DNA of 64,000 nucleotides. Origin: Nocardioides sp. W7. GTDB lineage: Bacteria > Actinomycetota > Actinomycetes > Propionibacteriales > Nocardioidaceae. The DNA is taken from positions 930,001-994,000 of the forward strand of contig NZ_CP095078.1 in the NCBI RefSeq assembly GCF_022919075.1, given 5' to 3'. Of this stretch, positions 39,997-64,000 are shown piece by piece. A program made the translations under genes and the position numbers. How positions within the stretch are numbered: the first letter of the stretch is position 1; every line of letters starts with the position of its first letter. A model generated the notes under the pieces. That model did not search any database, was not told the origin of the DNA, and worked only from the letters and a program-made list of their open reading frames with translations.

Positions 39997-40078
39997 GGCC
40001 GAGCGAAGCGAGGGGCCGGGGGCACGCCGGGAGGTCGAGTAGCGTCGACGGGACCGAGCGAAGCGAGGGACCGTGACG
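39997..40078. repeat. REP-like element at the start of the comB-like gene
   Basis: GGGCCGAGCGAAGCGAGGGG (from about 39996) recurs as GGGACCGAGCGAAGCGAGGG (from about 40050). Between them lies GGTCGAGTAGCG, and CGCGTATC follows at 40077. The order GTCGAGTAG ... GAGCGAAGCGAG ... CGTATC resembles REP-like elements of high-GC actinobacteria. The last copy supplies the GAGGGA ribosome site and abuts the GTG start of the next gene. Confidence 0.6.
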
Positions 40079-40843
40079 CGTATCCAGGCCGCCCACGCCC
40101 AGGCCGGCTTCGACGTCCGCTTCGACTGGGGGCTGACCGGGGCCCGGGCGGTGGCGGCCGACGTGACGGTCGTGGTCGACGTGCTGTCGTTCTCGACCAC
40201 GTTGTCGGTGGCGGTCGAGCGGGGGATCGAGGTCTTCCCGCTCGGCTGGCGCGACGTGCGCGCGACGACGTACGCCGCCACCCGTGACGCGGTGCTCGCG
40301 GTCGGTCGTCGCGAGGCTGCCGAGGGGCAGGTCAGCCTGTCACCGCTGACGGTCCGCGCGTCGTCCGGCGTGGAGCGGCTGGTGCTGCCGAGCCCGAACG
40401 GGTCGAGCATCTGCTTCGGACTGGCCGAGGCCGGCGTCGAGGTGCTGGTCGGCTGCCTGCGCAACGCCCGGGCCGTGGGTGCCGCGCTGGCCGACCGGCT
40501 GCGGGACGGCGCGTCGGTCGCGGTCGTGGCCGCCGGCGAGCGGTGGCCCGACGGCTCGCTGCGCCCGGCCGTCGAGGACCTGTGGGGAGCGGGCGCCGTG
40601 CTGGCCGCGCTCGCGGACGCCGGAGTCGGCCGGCCGAGCCCCGAGGCCCGGGTCGCGGCGGCGGCGTACGACGTGGTGGCCGGCGACCTGAGCGCCGCCC
40701 TGCACGACTGCGCGAGCGGCCGCGAGCTCGTGGAGGGCGGCTTCGGAGGTGACGTGGCCGTGGCCGCCGAGGTGGACGCGACGGACGTCGTACCCGTGCT
40801 GTCGGGTGAGTCGTTTCGCGACGGGCCGCGCTCGGATCCGTGA
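40073..40843 (+). CDS. comB: 2-phosphosulfolactate phosphatase-like protein
   Basis: Phosphatase-family protein of 256 residues. FDWGLTGARA, VVVDVLSFSTTLSVAVERG, VLPSPNGSSICF and GCLRNARAV match ComB. ComB removes phosphate from 2-phosphosulfolactate in the coenzyme M pathway of archaea; actinobacterial homologues are widespread, and their substrate is not settled. The GTG start at 40073 directly follows a REP-like repeat. Only the first few residues could derive from it; the conserved fold begins with QAGFDVRFDWG. Confidence 0.85.
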   Translation: MTRIQAAHAQAGFDVRFDWGLTGARAVAADVTVVVDVLSFSTTLSVAVERGIEVFPLGWRDVRATTYAATRDAVLAVGRREAAEGQVSLSPLTVRASSGVERLVLPSPNGSSICFGLAEAGVEVLVGCLRNARAVGAALADRLRDGASVAVVAAGERWPDGSLRPAVEDLWGAGAVLAALADAGVGRPSPEARVAAAAYDVVAGDLSAALHDCASGRELVEGGFGGDVAVAAEVDATDVVPVLSGESFRDGPRSDP

Positions 40844-59359: not shown

Positions 59360-60880
59360 GTGGCAGACATGAGGGACCTGGTCGTCGAGCTGCGCGAGCG
59401 ACTGGCGGTGGCCCGGCAGGGCGGCAGCGAGGCCGCTCGCCGCAAGCACACCGACCGCGGCAAGCTGCTGGTGCGCGAGCGGGTCGACCGGCTGCTGGAC
59501 CCGGGCAGCCCGTTCCTGGAGCTGAGCCCGCTGGCGGCGTACGACCTGTACGGCGGGGGAGTGGCCGCCGCCGGCGTGGTCACCGGGATCGGCCGGGTCC
59601 ACGGTCGCGAGGTGGTGGTCGTCGCCAACGACGCCACGGTGAAGGGCGGCACCTACTACCCGCTGACGGTCAAGAAGCACCTGCGCGCGCAGGCCGTCGC
59701 GTCCGAGAACCACCTCCCGTGCGTCTACCTCGTCGACTCCGGCGGGGCGTTCCTGCCGATGCAGGACGAGGTGTTCCCCGACCGCGAGCACTTCGGTCGG
59801 ATCTTCTTCAACCAGGCCAATCTCTCCGCGCGCGGGATCCCGCAGATCGCGGCGGTCATGGGCTCGTGCACCGCGGGCGGCGCCTACGTGCCGGCGATGA
59901 GCGACGAGACCGTGATCGTGCGCGACCAGGGCACGATCTTCCTCGGCGGCCCGCCGCTGGTGAAGGCCGCGACCGGGGAGGTCGTGACCGCCGAGGAGCT
60001 CGGTGGCGGCGAGGTGCACGCGCGCACCTCCGGCGTCGTCGACCACCTCGCCGACGACGACGCGCACGCGCTGGCCATCGTGCGGGGGATCGTGGACACC
60101 CTTCGACCGGCGCCCGTGGCCCCCTGGGAGATCCGGCCGGTCGAGGAGCCGCTGGAGGACCCGGCCTCGCTCTACGACGTCGTCCCGGCGGAGGTCCGCT
60201 CGCCGTACGACGTCCGCGAGGTGATCCGCCGCGTCGTCGACGGCTCGCGGTTTCAGGAGTTCAAGAGGCTGTACGGCGAGACGCTGGTGACCGGCTTCGC
60301 GCACATCTGGGGCCACCCGGTCGGGATCGTGGCGAACAACGGGATCCTGTTCAGCGAGTCGGCGCTCAAGGGCGCGCACTTCATCGAGCTGTGCAACCAG
60401 CGCGGCATCCCGCTGGTCTTCCTGCAGAACATCTCCGGCTTCATGGTCGGCCGGGAGTACGAGAACAAGGGCATCGCCCGCGACGGCGCGAAGCTCGTCA
60501 CGGCGGTCGCGTGCAGCGTGGTCCCGAAGTTCACCGTCGTGATCGGCGGCTCGTTCGGGGCGGGCAACTACGGCATGTGCGGGCGGGCCTACGACCCGCG
60601 GTTCCTGTGGATGTGGCCCAACGCGCGGATCTCGGTGATGGGCGGGGAGCAGGCCGCGTCGGTGCTCGCGACCGTCGCCGGTCGCCCTGAGGACGAGGAG
60701 TTCAAGGCCCCGATCCGCGACCAGTACGAGTCCCAGGGTTCGCCGTACTTCGCCACCGCCCGGCTCTGGGACGACGGCATCATCGACCCCGCCGACACTC
60801 GCCGGGTGCTCGGCCTGGGGCTCGCCGCCGCGGCGAACGCGCCGGTGCCGGAGCCCTCCTACGGCGTCTTTCGGATGTGA
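59360..60880 (+). CDS. Acyl-CoA carboxylase beta subunit (methylcrotonyl-CoA type)
   Basis: Carboxyltransferase of 506 residues that moves CO2 from biotin to the acyl-Co[38 protein letters not shown] and [14 protein letters not shown] (oxyanion and acyl-CoA sites), [15 protein letters not shown] and [19 protein letters not shown] are all typical of MccB. Methylcrotonyl specificity is inferred from these and from HMG-CoA lyase downstream. The GTG at 59360 is supported by the -10 spacing; ATG at 59369 is the alternative. The gene for the biotin subunit follows after 64 nt. Confidence 0.92.
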
Positions 60881-60890
60881 GGGCCGCAGT

Positions 60891-60930
60891 GACGCACGAG
60901 GAACGAGCGCGTCGAAACCCGCCGACGTTC
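60891..60930. repeat. Degenerate REP-like element between the carboxylase genes
   Basis: GTGACGCACGAGGAACGAGC followed by GCGTCGAAACCC resembles the 3' half of the 45-bp unit repeated at 61331-61510 (GTGAGGAACGAGCGGGCGTA then TCGAGATTCCC). It lies in the 64-nt gap between the two carboxylase genes, just upstream of the GAGGAGA ribosome site. Confidence 0.5.
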
Positions 60931-60944
60931 ACCGAGGAGAGTTG

Positions 60945-62984
60945 ATGATCGAGTCCCTCTGCATCGCCAACCGCGGCGAGATCGCCGTCCGCGTGATGCG
61001 CACCGCGGCCCGCCTCGGCATCCGCACCGTCGCCGTGTTCACCGAGCCCGACGCCACGGCCCCGCACGTCCGGGCCGCGGACGAGGCGGTGCTCGTGGCG
61101 TCGTACCTCGATGTCGACGCGGTGGTCGCCGCCGCCGTCGCCACGGGTGCGGACGCGGTGCACCCGGGCTACGGCTTCCTCTCCGAGCGAGCCGCCTTCG
61201 CCCGTGCGGTGCTCGACGCCGGCCTGCTCTTCGTCGGCCCGTCGGCCGAGGTGATGGACGCGATGGGACGCAAGGACGCGGCCCGCGAGGTCGCCATCGC
61301 GGCCGGGGTGCCGGTGGTGCCGAGCGACTCCGGAGGTTTCGGTGATCGAGTAGCCCGTGAGGAACGAGGGGGCGTCGGAGGTTTCGGTGATCGAGTAGCC
61401 CGTGAGGAACGAGGGGGCGTCGGAGGTTTCGGTGATCGAGTAGCCCGTGAGGAACGAGGGGGCGTCGGAGGTTTCGGTGATCGAGTAGCCCGTGAGGAAC
61501 GAGCGGGCGTATCGAGATTCCCGGTCCTGGTGAAGGCGGCCGCCGGCGGCGGCGGCAAGGGCATGCGCGTCGTCCGCTCCGCCGAGGAGATGGAGGAGGC
61601 GGTGGCCGCCGCGAAGCGCGAGGCCCTCAGCGCATTCGGCGACGACACCATGCTGGTCGAGAAGTACGTCGAGCGCGGCCGGCACGTCGAGGTCCAGGTG
61701 CTGGCCGACACCCACGGCACGGTGCTGCACCTGTTCGAGCGCGACTGCTCCACCCAGCGCCGGCACCAGAAGGTGCTGGAGGAGGCGCCCGCACCCACCA
61801 TCACCCCCGAGGTGCGCGAGCTGGTGACGTCGTCGGCCGTGGCGCTCGCCCGCCAGGTCGGGTACGTCGGCGCGGGGACCGTGGAGTTCCTGGTCGACGA
61901 CGAGACGGGCGAGGCGTACTTCCTGGAGATGAACACCCGGCTCCAGGTCGAGCACCCGGTCACCGAGCTCGTCACCGGGCTGGACCTGGTCGAGCTGCAG
62001 CTGCGGGTCGCCGCCGGTGAGCCGCTGGGGCTGACCCAGGACGACGTCCGCTGCGAGGGGCACGCCATCGAGGCCCGGGTGTACGCCGAGGACGCCTTCG
62101 GCGGCTTCCTGCCCCAGGCCGGGGCGACCTCCATCGTGCGCTGGCCCGCGAGCGCCCGCGTCGACCACGCCCTGGAGCCGGACCAGGTCGTGAGCACCTC
62201 GTACGACCCGATGCTGGGCAAGGTGGTCGTGCACGGCCCGGACCGCGAGTCGGCCCGGCGGGCCCTGGTCGCCGCGCTCGACGAGACGGTGATCCTCGGG
62301 CTGACCACCAACACCGGGTTCCTGAGGGCGCTGGCCGCGGGCGAGGCGTTCCGTGACGCGGCCATCGACACCGCCTGGCTGGACCGGCACGAGGTGGCTC
62401 CGCCCGACCCCGACCTCCCGCGTCTCTTCGTGGCCTGGGTGAGCGCGCTGCTCACCGTGGTCGGCGACACCGGTCACCCGTTCCAGGCCGACGGGTTCCG
62501 GCTGGGTGCGCCGCCCGCGCCGACGCTGGTCGCGCTCGAACGGGAGGTCGTCGTGGACCGGCACGCGGGCACCGTCGACGGCGTACCCGTGCGTCAGCTG
62601 GCCGCCGCCGACCACGTCCTGGAGCTGGCCGTCGACGGCCGCCGGGTGCGGATGGTGGTGAATGTGCAGCGGGACGTCGCCGAGGCGTCGTACCAGGGTC
62701 AGCGGTTCGTCTTCGCCCGTCCCGACGCCCTGGCCGACCACGGTCCGCTCGCCGGCGACGGCCTGGTCACCGCCCCGATGCCCGGCACGGTCCTCGAGGT
62801 CCGGGTCGAGCCGGGCACGACTGTCGCGGAAGGCGACCCGCTGGGCATGCTGGAGGCGATGAAGATGGAGCTCACCCTGCGCGCGCCCTTCGCCGGCACG
62901 GTCGTCGCGGTCGACGTCGCCGCCGGCCAGCGGGTCGCCCTCGGTGCGGTCCTGTTCCACGTGGAACCGGAGGAGGTCACATGA
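60945..62984 (+). CDS. Biotin carboxylase/BCCP alpha subunit with in-frame repeat insertion
   Basis: Protein of 679 residues that carboxylates its own biotin. The N-terminal biotin carboxylase domain begins IANRGEIAVRV. The ATP-grasp region has KAAAGGGGKGM near 195, then QRRHQKVLEEAPAP and EMNTRLQVEHPVTE. The C-terminal biotinyl domain has EAMKM with the target Lys at 640. Residues 130-189 are four tandem copies of GGFGDRVAREERGGV, which replace or extend the short linker that normally lies between VPVVP and the first ATP-grasp strand (FPVLVKA). A single copy would match normal linker length. The start at 60945 follows GAGGAGA; a TTG directly before it is rejected. Confidence 0.92.
   Translation: MIESLCIANRGEIAVRVMRTAARLGIRTVAVFTEPDATAPHVRAADEAVLVASYLDVDAVVAAAVATGADAVHPGYGFLSERAAFARAVLDAGLLFVGPSAEVMDAMGRKDAAREVAIAAGVPVVPSDSGGFGDRVAREERGGVGGFGDRVAREERGGVGGFGDRVAREERGGVGGFGDRVAREERAGVSRFPVLVKAAAGGGGKGMRVVRSAEEMEEAVAAAKREALSAFGDDTMLVEKYVERGRHVEVQVLADTHGTVLHLFERDCSTQRRHQKVLEEAPAPTITPEVRELVTSSAVALARQVGYVGAGTVEFLVDDETGEAYFLEMNTRLQVEHPVTELVTGLDLVELQLRVAAGEPLGLTQDDVRCEGHAIEARVYAEDAFGGFLPQAGATSIVRWPASARVDHALEPDQVVSTSYDPMLGKVVVHGPDRESARRALVAALDETVILGLTTNTGFLRALAAGEAFRDAAIDTAWLDRHEVAPPDPDLPRLFVAWVSALLTVVGDTGHPFQADGFRLGAPPAPTLVALEREVVVDRHAGTVDGVPVRQLAAADHVLELAVDGRRVRMVVNVQRDVAEASYQGQRFVFARPDALADHGPLAGDGLVTAPMPGTVLEVRVEPGTTVAEGDPLGMLEAMKMELTLRAPFAGTVVAVDVAAGQRVALGAVLFHVEPEEVT
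61331..61510 (+). repeat. Four tandem 45-bp units of a REP-like element inside a coding sequence
   Basis: Units start at 61331, 61376, 61421 and 61466 with no spacers. Units 1-3 are identical; unit 4 differs by GAGCGG for GAGGGG and continues into TATCGAGATTCC. Each unit contains GATCGAGTAGCCCG and GAGGAACGAG. As 45 is divisible by three, the reading frame is kept in all copies on the plus strand, and the minus strand is open as well. Confidence 0.95.
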
Positions 62985-63005
62985 GTCCCACGGGCAACTG
63001 TGGTT

Positions 63006-63079
63006 GCTGTAACGCGATGTTCGCCGCACTGGCCGCATGCTGCAGCGGCCGGGTAGTGGGGCGAACATCGCGTTACAGC
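63006..63079. repeat. Long palindrome with perfect 20-bp arms inside the leucine operon
   Basis: GCTGTAACGCGATGTTCGCC (63006-63025) is the exact reverse complement of 63060-63079. Pairing continues inward for four of the next five bases, and GGCCGC/GCGGCC form a nested hairpin. It lies in the 130-nt gap between the biotin carboxylase and HMG-CoA lyase genes, so it may tune or end transcription within the operon. Confidence 0.88.
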
Positions 63080-63114
63080 CCGAGCGCCCGCCGCGCCCAC
63101 CCCGGAGCCCTCCG

Positions 63115-64000
63115 ATGACCCCCGGCCTGCCGACGGTCGTCCCCGAGCCCGGGCTGCCCGAGCGGGTGACGATCTACGAGGTCGGCCCACGCGACGGGCT
63201 GCAGAACGAGCAGGCCCTGGTGCCGACCGAGGTGAAGGCCGAGTTCGTGCAGCGCCTCGTCAGAGCCGGGCTGCCCGTCGTGGAGGCGACCAGCTTCGTC
63301 CACCCGCGCTGGGTGCCGCAGCTGGCCGACGCCGAGGAGCTGATGGGCCTGCTGGGCGAGGCCGGCCGGCGGCACCCGGTGCTGGTGCCCAACGAGCGCG
63401 GGCTGGACCGCGCGCTGGCCCTGGGGCTGGAGCACGTCGCGATCTTCGGCTCGGCCACCGAGACCTTCGCCCAGAAGAACCTCAACCGCAGCCTCGACGG
63501 CCAGCTGGAGATGTTCGAGCCGACGGTACGTCGCGCGCGCGACCACGGGCTCGACGTCCGGGCCTACGTCAGCATGTGCTTCGGCGACCCCTGGGAGGGG
63601 CCGGTGCCGGTCGAGCAGGTCGTCGCCGTCGGCACTCGGCTGCTGGACCTGGGCGCGAGCCAGCTCAGCCTCGGCGACACGATCGGCGTCGGCACCGCCG
63701 GGCAGGTCACCGCCCTGGTCGCGGCGTTCGACGCGGCCGGGGTCGGCGTCGACCGGCTCGCGCTGCACTTCCACGACACCTACGGCCAGGCCCTGACCAA
63801 CGCGTACGCCGCGCTCCGGGCCGGCATCACCACCTTCGACGCGAGCGCCGGCGGGCTGGGCGGCTGCCCCTACGCGAAGAGCGCCACCGGCAACCTCGCG
63901 ACCGAGGACCTGGTGTGGCTGCTCACCGGTCTCGGCATCGAGCACGGTGTCGACCTGGCGGCGCTGGCGGCCACGAGCACCTGGCTGGCCGACCGGCTCG
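63115..64000 (+). CDS. mvaB: Hydroxymethylglutaryl-CoA lyase (3' end outside window)
   Basis: The first 295 residues of a TIM-barrel lyase that splits HMG-CoA into acetoacetate and acetyl-CoA, the last step of leucine degradation. YEVGPRDGLQNE carries the catalytic Arg26 and Asp27; EATSFVHPRWVPQLADAEEL, HFHDTYGQALTNAY and GGLGGCPYAKSATGN (metal His and catalytic Cys) are all present. The ATG at 63115 has GGAG about 9 nt upstream. No stop occurs before the window ends; about 10-20 residues are probably missing. Confidence 0.93.
   Translation, partial: MTPGLPTVVPEPGLPERVTIYEVGPRDGLQNEQALVPTEVKAEFVQRLVRAGLPVVEATSFVHPRWVPQLADAEELMGLLGEAGRRHPVLVPNERGLDRALALGLEHVAIFGSATETFAQKNLNRSLDGQLEMFEPTVRRARDHGLDVRAYVSMCFGDPWEGPVPVEQVVAVGTRLLDLGASQLSLGDTIGVGTAGQVTALVAAFDAAGVGVDRLALHFHDTYGQALTNAYAALRAGITTFDASAGGLGGCPYAKSATGNLATEDLVWLLTGLGIEHGVDLAALAATSTWLADRL

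Follow-up and report, generated by a model that had tools for sequence, protein, structure and literature searches.

In the genome of Nocardioides sp. W7 the gene for a biotin-dependent carboxylase alpha subunit carries an in-frame array of four 45-bp units that belong to a dispersed palindromic family. We consider it likely that a REP-type palindrome landed once in a linker of five to six residues and grew there by tandem duplication, probably through slippage; it is predicted to be tolerated as a disordered loop. The reading with most support makes this case one of repeated colonisations of carboxylase loops in Nocardioides.

The four-unit array and its host gene

Using TRF we detected a repeat at 61331-61510 of the window (the whole stretch of 64,000 nucleotides analysed), with a period of 45, 4.0 copies and 99% matches, whose score of 353 was the highest of the 11 TRF rows in the window, the runner-up scoring 76. 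The four 45-bp units lie head to tail and in frame and add 60 amino acids (array residues 130-189), and both TRF and the ORF agree with the first-pass annotation, which had described four such units with the first three identical. Unit 1 (61331..61375, + strand; peptide phase GGFGDRVAREERGGV) stops short of the element's right end, units 2 (61376..61420, +) and 3 (61421..61465, +) are the same as unit 1 over 45 nt, and this identity supports the expansion by tandem duplication that had been proposed. Unit 4 (61466..61510, +) differs at 1/45 positions (GAGCGGG vs GAGGGGG in units 1-3), has an intact inner stem and runs into the right end, which units 1-3, being truncated at the right, do not reach. 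The sole complete palindromic element of the array, TCGAGTAGCCCGTGAGGAACGAGCGGGCGTATCGAGA, was located by pattern search at 61481..61517 (+; G000:C1:991481-991517). Ahead of the first left end lies the flank CGGAGGTTTCGGTGA (61331..61345, +), which recurs before units 2-4, and the duplicated unit thus takes in sequence upstream of the left end of the element. The codons S-D-S (61323..61331, +) stand between PVVP and the first unit.

The host is a 679-aa ORF (60945..62984, +), a biotin carboxylase/biotin carrier alpha subunit of the 3-methylcrotonyl- or acyl-CoA carboxylase type, in which Pfam recognised Biotin_carb_N, CPSase_L_D2, Biotin_carb_C and Biotin_lipoyl domains, and its closest solved structure is 3u9s, the alpha subunit of 3-methylcrotonyl-CoA carboxylase (MccA; E 4e-141). 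Alignments to solved carboxylase alpha subunits break within the array, jumping from query residue 145 to 186 with 3u9s and from 129 to 191 with 9yx0, which supports the earlier placement of the insert at the boundary that precedes the ATP-grasp (B) domain. A second loop of the host protein (RW-PASA-RVDHAL; 62145..62156, +) is short here and carries repeat-derived inserts in several homologues. Upstream lies a 506-aa ORF (59360..60880, +) named as the carboxyltransferase beta subunit gene by similarity to a beta-subunit query, which matched at G000:C1:989384-990103 and 990131-990877; the ORF downstream of the carboxylase presumably encodes HMG-CoA lyase.

Other repeat-like sequences were also observed nearby. 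Between the beta and alpha subunit genes, the stretch at 60889-60925 with GCACGAGGAACGAGCGCGTCGAAACC is apparently a degenerate relative of the element, and a further REP-like stretch, with GGTCGAGTAGC and GCGAAGCGAGGGACCG, lies at 40001-40110 of the window. Directly behind the carboxylase stop codon, at 63006-63079, there is a second dispersed palindrome with 37-nt arms that are 84% complementary and no loop, found at nine further places in the genome (E <= 0.001). No Rfam match reached the gathering score in window positions 60500-63500; three matches below that score fell on this palindrome (63003-63082), with weak ones to two microRNA families.

A dispersed palindromic family with one-sided arrays

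The array is no chance repeat. A genome search for the unit had been suggested by the first-pass annotation, and the genome, 5.51 Mb in one contig, contains 14 further places that match the 180-nt array at E <= 0.001. Searching for complete elements with the pattern TCGAGTAGC..CGTATCGAGA, and with the reversed pattern as control, we obtained 35 matches in the genome against 0 for the reversed pattern; the description of the unit as REP-like is therefore well founded, the element being a dispersed palindrome with 35 complete copies. A core of the window's kind (loop GAGGAACGA or a near variant, with co-varying arms) is present in 21/35 copies, and the remaining 14/35 represent a partner palindrome that shares its ends. 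Counted from the match list, there are 8 opposite-strand pairs within 200 bp among the 35 copies, each formed of one window-type core and one partner palindrome. The inner arms vary together (CCCGC/GCGGG, CCGCC/GGCGG, CCGTCGC/GCGACGG and CCGGT/ACCGG around GAGGRACGA or the like), and among the 30/35 copies examined, 27 have G-C as the next outer pair and 3 have A-T. The position of GTAG at the foot of the inner stem is built into the search pattern, and the outer arms extend past it. A scan of the genus found the pattern in 55/196 genomes, that of the window included, with 0 matches to the reversed control in each.

Mobilisation by a RAYT was considered and dropped, as a search for the Y1 (RAYT) transposase, PF01797, gave matches in 0/15 element-bearing genomes, the control giving matches in 5/14 genomes. 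A putative TTC target-site duplication was likewise dropped, since many copies share the sequence (TCGxyGG or TCGGTGA) that immediately precedes the left end.

We assessed how arrays are distributed around complete copies by counting exact ends, with an unpaired left end defined as TCGAGTAG within 110 bp of a complete copy. Extra left ends lie upstream of 11/35 complete copies in the genome and downstream of 0/35, and unpaired right ends were found beside 1/35 copies, again upstream (L239). An array at L056 was discarded as spurious, being counted only when one mismatch was allowed. We also examined 56 stretches (L243-L298) taken from the top of the genus-scan match list, which represent six other genomes; here left ends lie upstream of 17/75 complete copies and downstream of 1/75, and right ends lie downstream of 2/75 copies (L291, L294). 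Among the 11 arrays of the window's genome, 4, that of the window included, repeat 15-16 of the 16 flank bases ahead of every later unit, and the remaining 7 repeat just 7-11 of 16.

The upstream left ends and the recurring flanks fit a mechanism in which synthesis would stop in the hairpin and restart upstream, leading to repeated copying of the flank and the left part of the element; the few unpaired right ends and the 7 arrays with poorly recurring flanks speak against it. In the carboxylase, the left part of the element and 15 bp of flank would thus have been duplicated in tandem into four 15-residue units, probably by polymerase slippage at the hairpin, after a single in-frame insertion of the dispersed palindrome into the five- to six-residue linker. 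The one-sided arrays offer a testable mechanism for the in-place multiplication of hairpin repeats.

Empty and filled linkers, and competing explanations

From 7968 proteins we collected 120 homologues, the window protein included, at E <= 1e-100, and defined the linker as the residues between PVVP and [FYL]PVLVK. It is 5-6 residues long in 66/120 homologues and 12 residues long in 22/120, and lengths above 24 residues occur only in the window protein (65) and P0002 (35). The first-pass annotation had supposed that a single unit would give about the normal linker length; this is not borne out, the commonest linker being one of 6 residues without a unit (61/120). It had also named unrelated linkers of 60 residues in homologues as evidence that would speak against its account, and there are none among the 120, the next longest measuring 35 residues, made up of a doublet of this same element, and 24 residues.

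The peptide GDRVAREERAG, allowing up to two differences, occurs in 5/120 homologues, and the linker lengths of these carriers are 65 (5 + 4 x 15) in the window protein, 35 (5 + 2 x 15) in P0002, 20 (5 + 15) in P0006 and 21 (6 + 15) in P0021 and P0031. As short linkers prevail and the carriers fall at 5-6 + 15n residues, the usual state of the linker is empty and not one unit, each unit adding 15 residues. In addition, P0040 has a weaker one-unit copy, and P0035 and P0067 look decayed; the placing of P0085 in the decayed group is probably a false call. In genome G120, a fragment of which is identical to P0006, the DNA of locus L149 contains one complete unit at the linker site. One site thus shows steps of the process: an empty linker, one unit, two, four, and decayed look-alikes.

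We next considered whether this recurrence could be inheritance, with a single insertion in an ancestor of many Nocardioides followed by many losses, which would be compatible with growth in place. In P0001, P0002, P0006, P0021 and P0031 the insert occupies one site in one frame and has one kind of right-hand junction (..SRFPVLVK or ..SRFPVLIK), as expected under this explanation, and P0035, P0040 and P0067 can be taken as decayed look-alikes. On a tree of the 120 homologues with both loops removed, the five carriers require four changes, four being forced by well-supported branches, although a fewest-changes count does not separate gains from losses. Nor are the carriers clustered, with 4 changes against a shuffled mean of 4.6 and counts as low in 176/500 shuffles. 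P0003 and P0004, which have no unit, are the sisters of the two-unit P0002, and the window protein falls outside them, so that one insertion and growth are insufficient and the pattern calls for a loss, an exchange of alleles or another gain. Against a single ancestral event, the nearest homologues of P0006 keep short linkers (5/6 other rows of its clade have five residues, TDASV, TDTSS or TGASS, the sixth, P0071, having an 11-residue linker that looks like another repeat), the carriers differ in the remainder before the unit (TDAGA, SGEPET, SGDPTS), and other families occupy the same loop, which indicates that the loop accepts new inserts. We therefore regard a lone ancestral insertion as unlikely, if still deserving of some weight. 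As a separate observation on the closely related P0002-P0004, the two-unit linker insert is in P0002 alone, and an insert of the window's family is in the second loop of P0002 and P0004 and not of P0003.

A multi-unit composite could instead have been built elsewhere and entered the gene ready-made. Elsewhere in this genome, locus L044 has two units in an array of period 45 that shares the A/T subfamily ends and is 91% identical over 82 nt, so that a doublet may have been inserted as such, and P0002 has two units. However, the later units of the window repeat 15/16 of the bases that precede the first unit, the L044 spacer matching its own flank at just 9/16, and homologues with one unit exist at the same site; entry as a finished composite is in our judgement improbable, and growth within the carboxylase gene remains the preferred reading.

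The same family enters other genes of this genome. Coding sequence continues on both sides in one open frame for 5/35 complete copies (L040, L041, L049, L050 and the window's L052), and with L051 there are six in-frame copies among the 35, in five genes. These comprise a pair (L040, L041; C1:259772-259890) in an IcmF-like mutase whose best solved match is 4xc6, a partner palindrome in a DUF2126 gene (L049; C1:698927-698958), a copy in a carboxyltransferase beta subunit gene (L050; C1:742951-742987) and one near the start of a short-chain dehydrogenase (SDR) gene (L051; C1:754846-754886). The insert region of the mutase is 98 residues long compared with 65-92 in 18 relatives, one more being unreadable. 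The DUF2126 gene (G000:C1 about 697400-700450) also encodes the peptides VSTSSTTG and VSTGSTTG, apparently in-frame copies from a different repeat family.

Selection for a functional variable linker in the carboxylase would account for the kept frame, the identity of units 1-3 and the presence of the same peptide at one place in homologues. Yet most homologues manage with the 5-6 residues given above, unrelated repeats and lengths are found in the same loop, and four further, unrelated genes of the genome carry the family or its partner palindrome in frame. Furthermore, only 1/3 frames of the window subfamily is open in the forward orientation, from which the sameness of the peptide in distant homologues would follow, and identical units can simply be young. 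The earlier suggestion that the enzyme uses the insert as a variable linker thus gains no support, as homologues have 0, 1, 2 or 4 units and the insert is predicted to be disordered. We consider selection for function very improbable and the insert to be presumably neutral.

The AlphaFold2 model of the protein (26 homologues; mean pLDDT 76.8, pTM 0.73) matches the alpha chains of PCC and MCC, and residues 130-190, the array, form its longest stretch with pLDDT < 50. Low pLDDT is weak evidence of disorder, as repeats often model poorly, and the enzyme is predicted from this model to tolerate the insert as a disordered loop. Columns that are invariant among the 26 homologues are kept in the host protein, GGGG and EAMKM included, consistent with the earlier view that the rest of the protein and its biotin site are intact (GGGGKG at 201, EAMKM at 637). 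Three identical units in one assembly might raise suspicion of an assembly artefact, or of a decaying gene, but this is barely credible given a one-contig genome that is 100% complete, an array of only 180 bp, an ORF open over 679 aa with these columns preserved, and two-unit and one-unit homologues from other assemblies.

Other repeats in carboxylase loops and known systems

We finally assessed inserts in carboxylase loops of relatives, for which the linker-locus DNA set comprised 140 loci, of which 139 were extracted and 123 were distinct; the label 'other REP-like' for homologue linkers denotes motifs read by eye. Palindromicity was tried as a general marker and rejected: by folding energy, z <= -2 occurred in 7/58 long linkers against 25/290 control pieces, with no clear excess. 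An ungapped palindrome score >= 9 occurred in 5/59 long linkers against 18/1180 control pieces, a weak excess, and the window array itself scores just 5. As these general tests were unclear or weak, copy number in the genome of origin was used instead.

Other repeats occupy the same linker in the DNA of L082, L087, L126, L156, L160 and L169, and L087 has another repeat family in both carboxylase loops. In the second loop (RW..RVDHAL), the peptide of P0002 and P0004 is, at the protein level, another frame of the window's family, and at the DNA level L084 carries the window's family and L013/L071 the partner palindrome. Likewise, a loop of the carboxylase beta subunit, compared at 30 loci, is 20-22 residues long in 16 and 25-50 in 12, with 2/30 not readable, and that of the window's genome has 48 residues holding an inverted pair. 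At the beta-loop loci L180, L183, L185 and L187 we observed lengths of 37-50 residues and unrelated palindromes, each with further copies in its own genome, the cores being CCCCGGGTACCCGGGG in L187 and GCACGCCATGGCGTGC in L183. When 19 inserts were searched against their own genomes, with no control pieces, 13 had other copies among the matches listed, ~80-100% identical over the matched part (L071, L084, L087, L022, L132, L149, L156, L169, L180, L183, L185, L186 and L187); the L181 insert found only itself in its own genome, and that of L182 at most one other match, and L126, L160, L188 and L190 make up the rest of the 19. These copies indicate that several unrelated families occupy the loops outside the window's genome.

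On a broader generalisation we are evenly balanced, namely that in Nocardioides many unrelated palindrome families repeatedly insert in frame into a small set of loops in acyl-CoA carboxylases and other core enzymes, as safe harbours, and grow one way by whole residues as replication restarts upstream of the hairpin, which would make the genus a natural insertion-scanning record. Because loops are shared by different repeats, genomes could reveal which loops accept inserts.

We found no report of in-frame palindromes in Nocardioides among the literature matches listed, and intragenic REPs and the Rickettsia palindromic elements (RPE) are precedents for the present case. According to the available part of one study, REPs of the GTAG and CGTC types occur within ORFs, clusters are repeated together with their flanking DNA, and recB of two Xanthomonas species has different REPs at about the same site (PMC3733652); its main text contains neither nocardioid- nor actinobact-. 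Going by that part, our family resembles GTAG REPs in being a short palindrome with GTAG (set by the search pattern) at the stem foot, co-varying arms, paired elements, flank-reiterating clusters and intragenic copies. In contrast to GTAG REPs, GTAG appears not to be terminal here, as the outer arms continue the palindrome, and Y1 (RAYT) genes were found in 0/15 element-bearing genomes, and for these reasons we do not file the family as a RAYT-linked REP. The enterobacterial RU-1/RU-2/RU-3 elements are described in the abstract of PMC2759123 as non-autonomous small repeats of 103-168 bp with open frames, inside gene loci. To judge from that abstract, they are likewise small elements whose open frames are joined to genes, although they are longer, and the tandem growth in an enzyme loop seen here does not feature in it.

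Protein-coding palindromes are best known from Rickettsia, and the present case extends them to a high-GC actinobacterial genus. According to the portions available, RPE lie in frame in unrelated metabolic genes, belong to several families and were about 150 bp as first reported (PMC10969869), and the product of an insert-bearing gmk gene is active (PMC2229807). The likeness to our elements that we claim, dispersed palindromes in frame in protein genes (6/35 copies here, in five genes), is one of behaviour. Unlike the rickettsial elements of about 150 bp, the units described here are about 40-50 bp and reside in a high-GC actinobacterium, where they show tandem growth within a gene by 15-residue steps and where several families share one enzyme loop across the genus.
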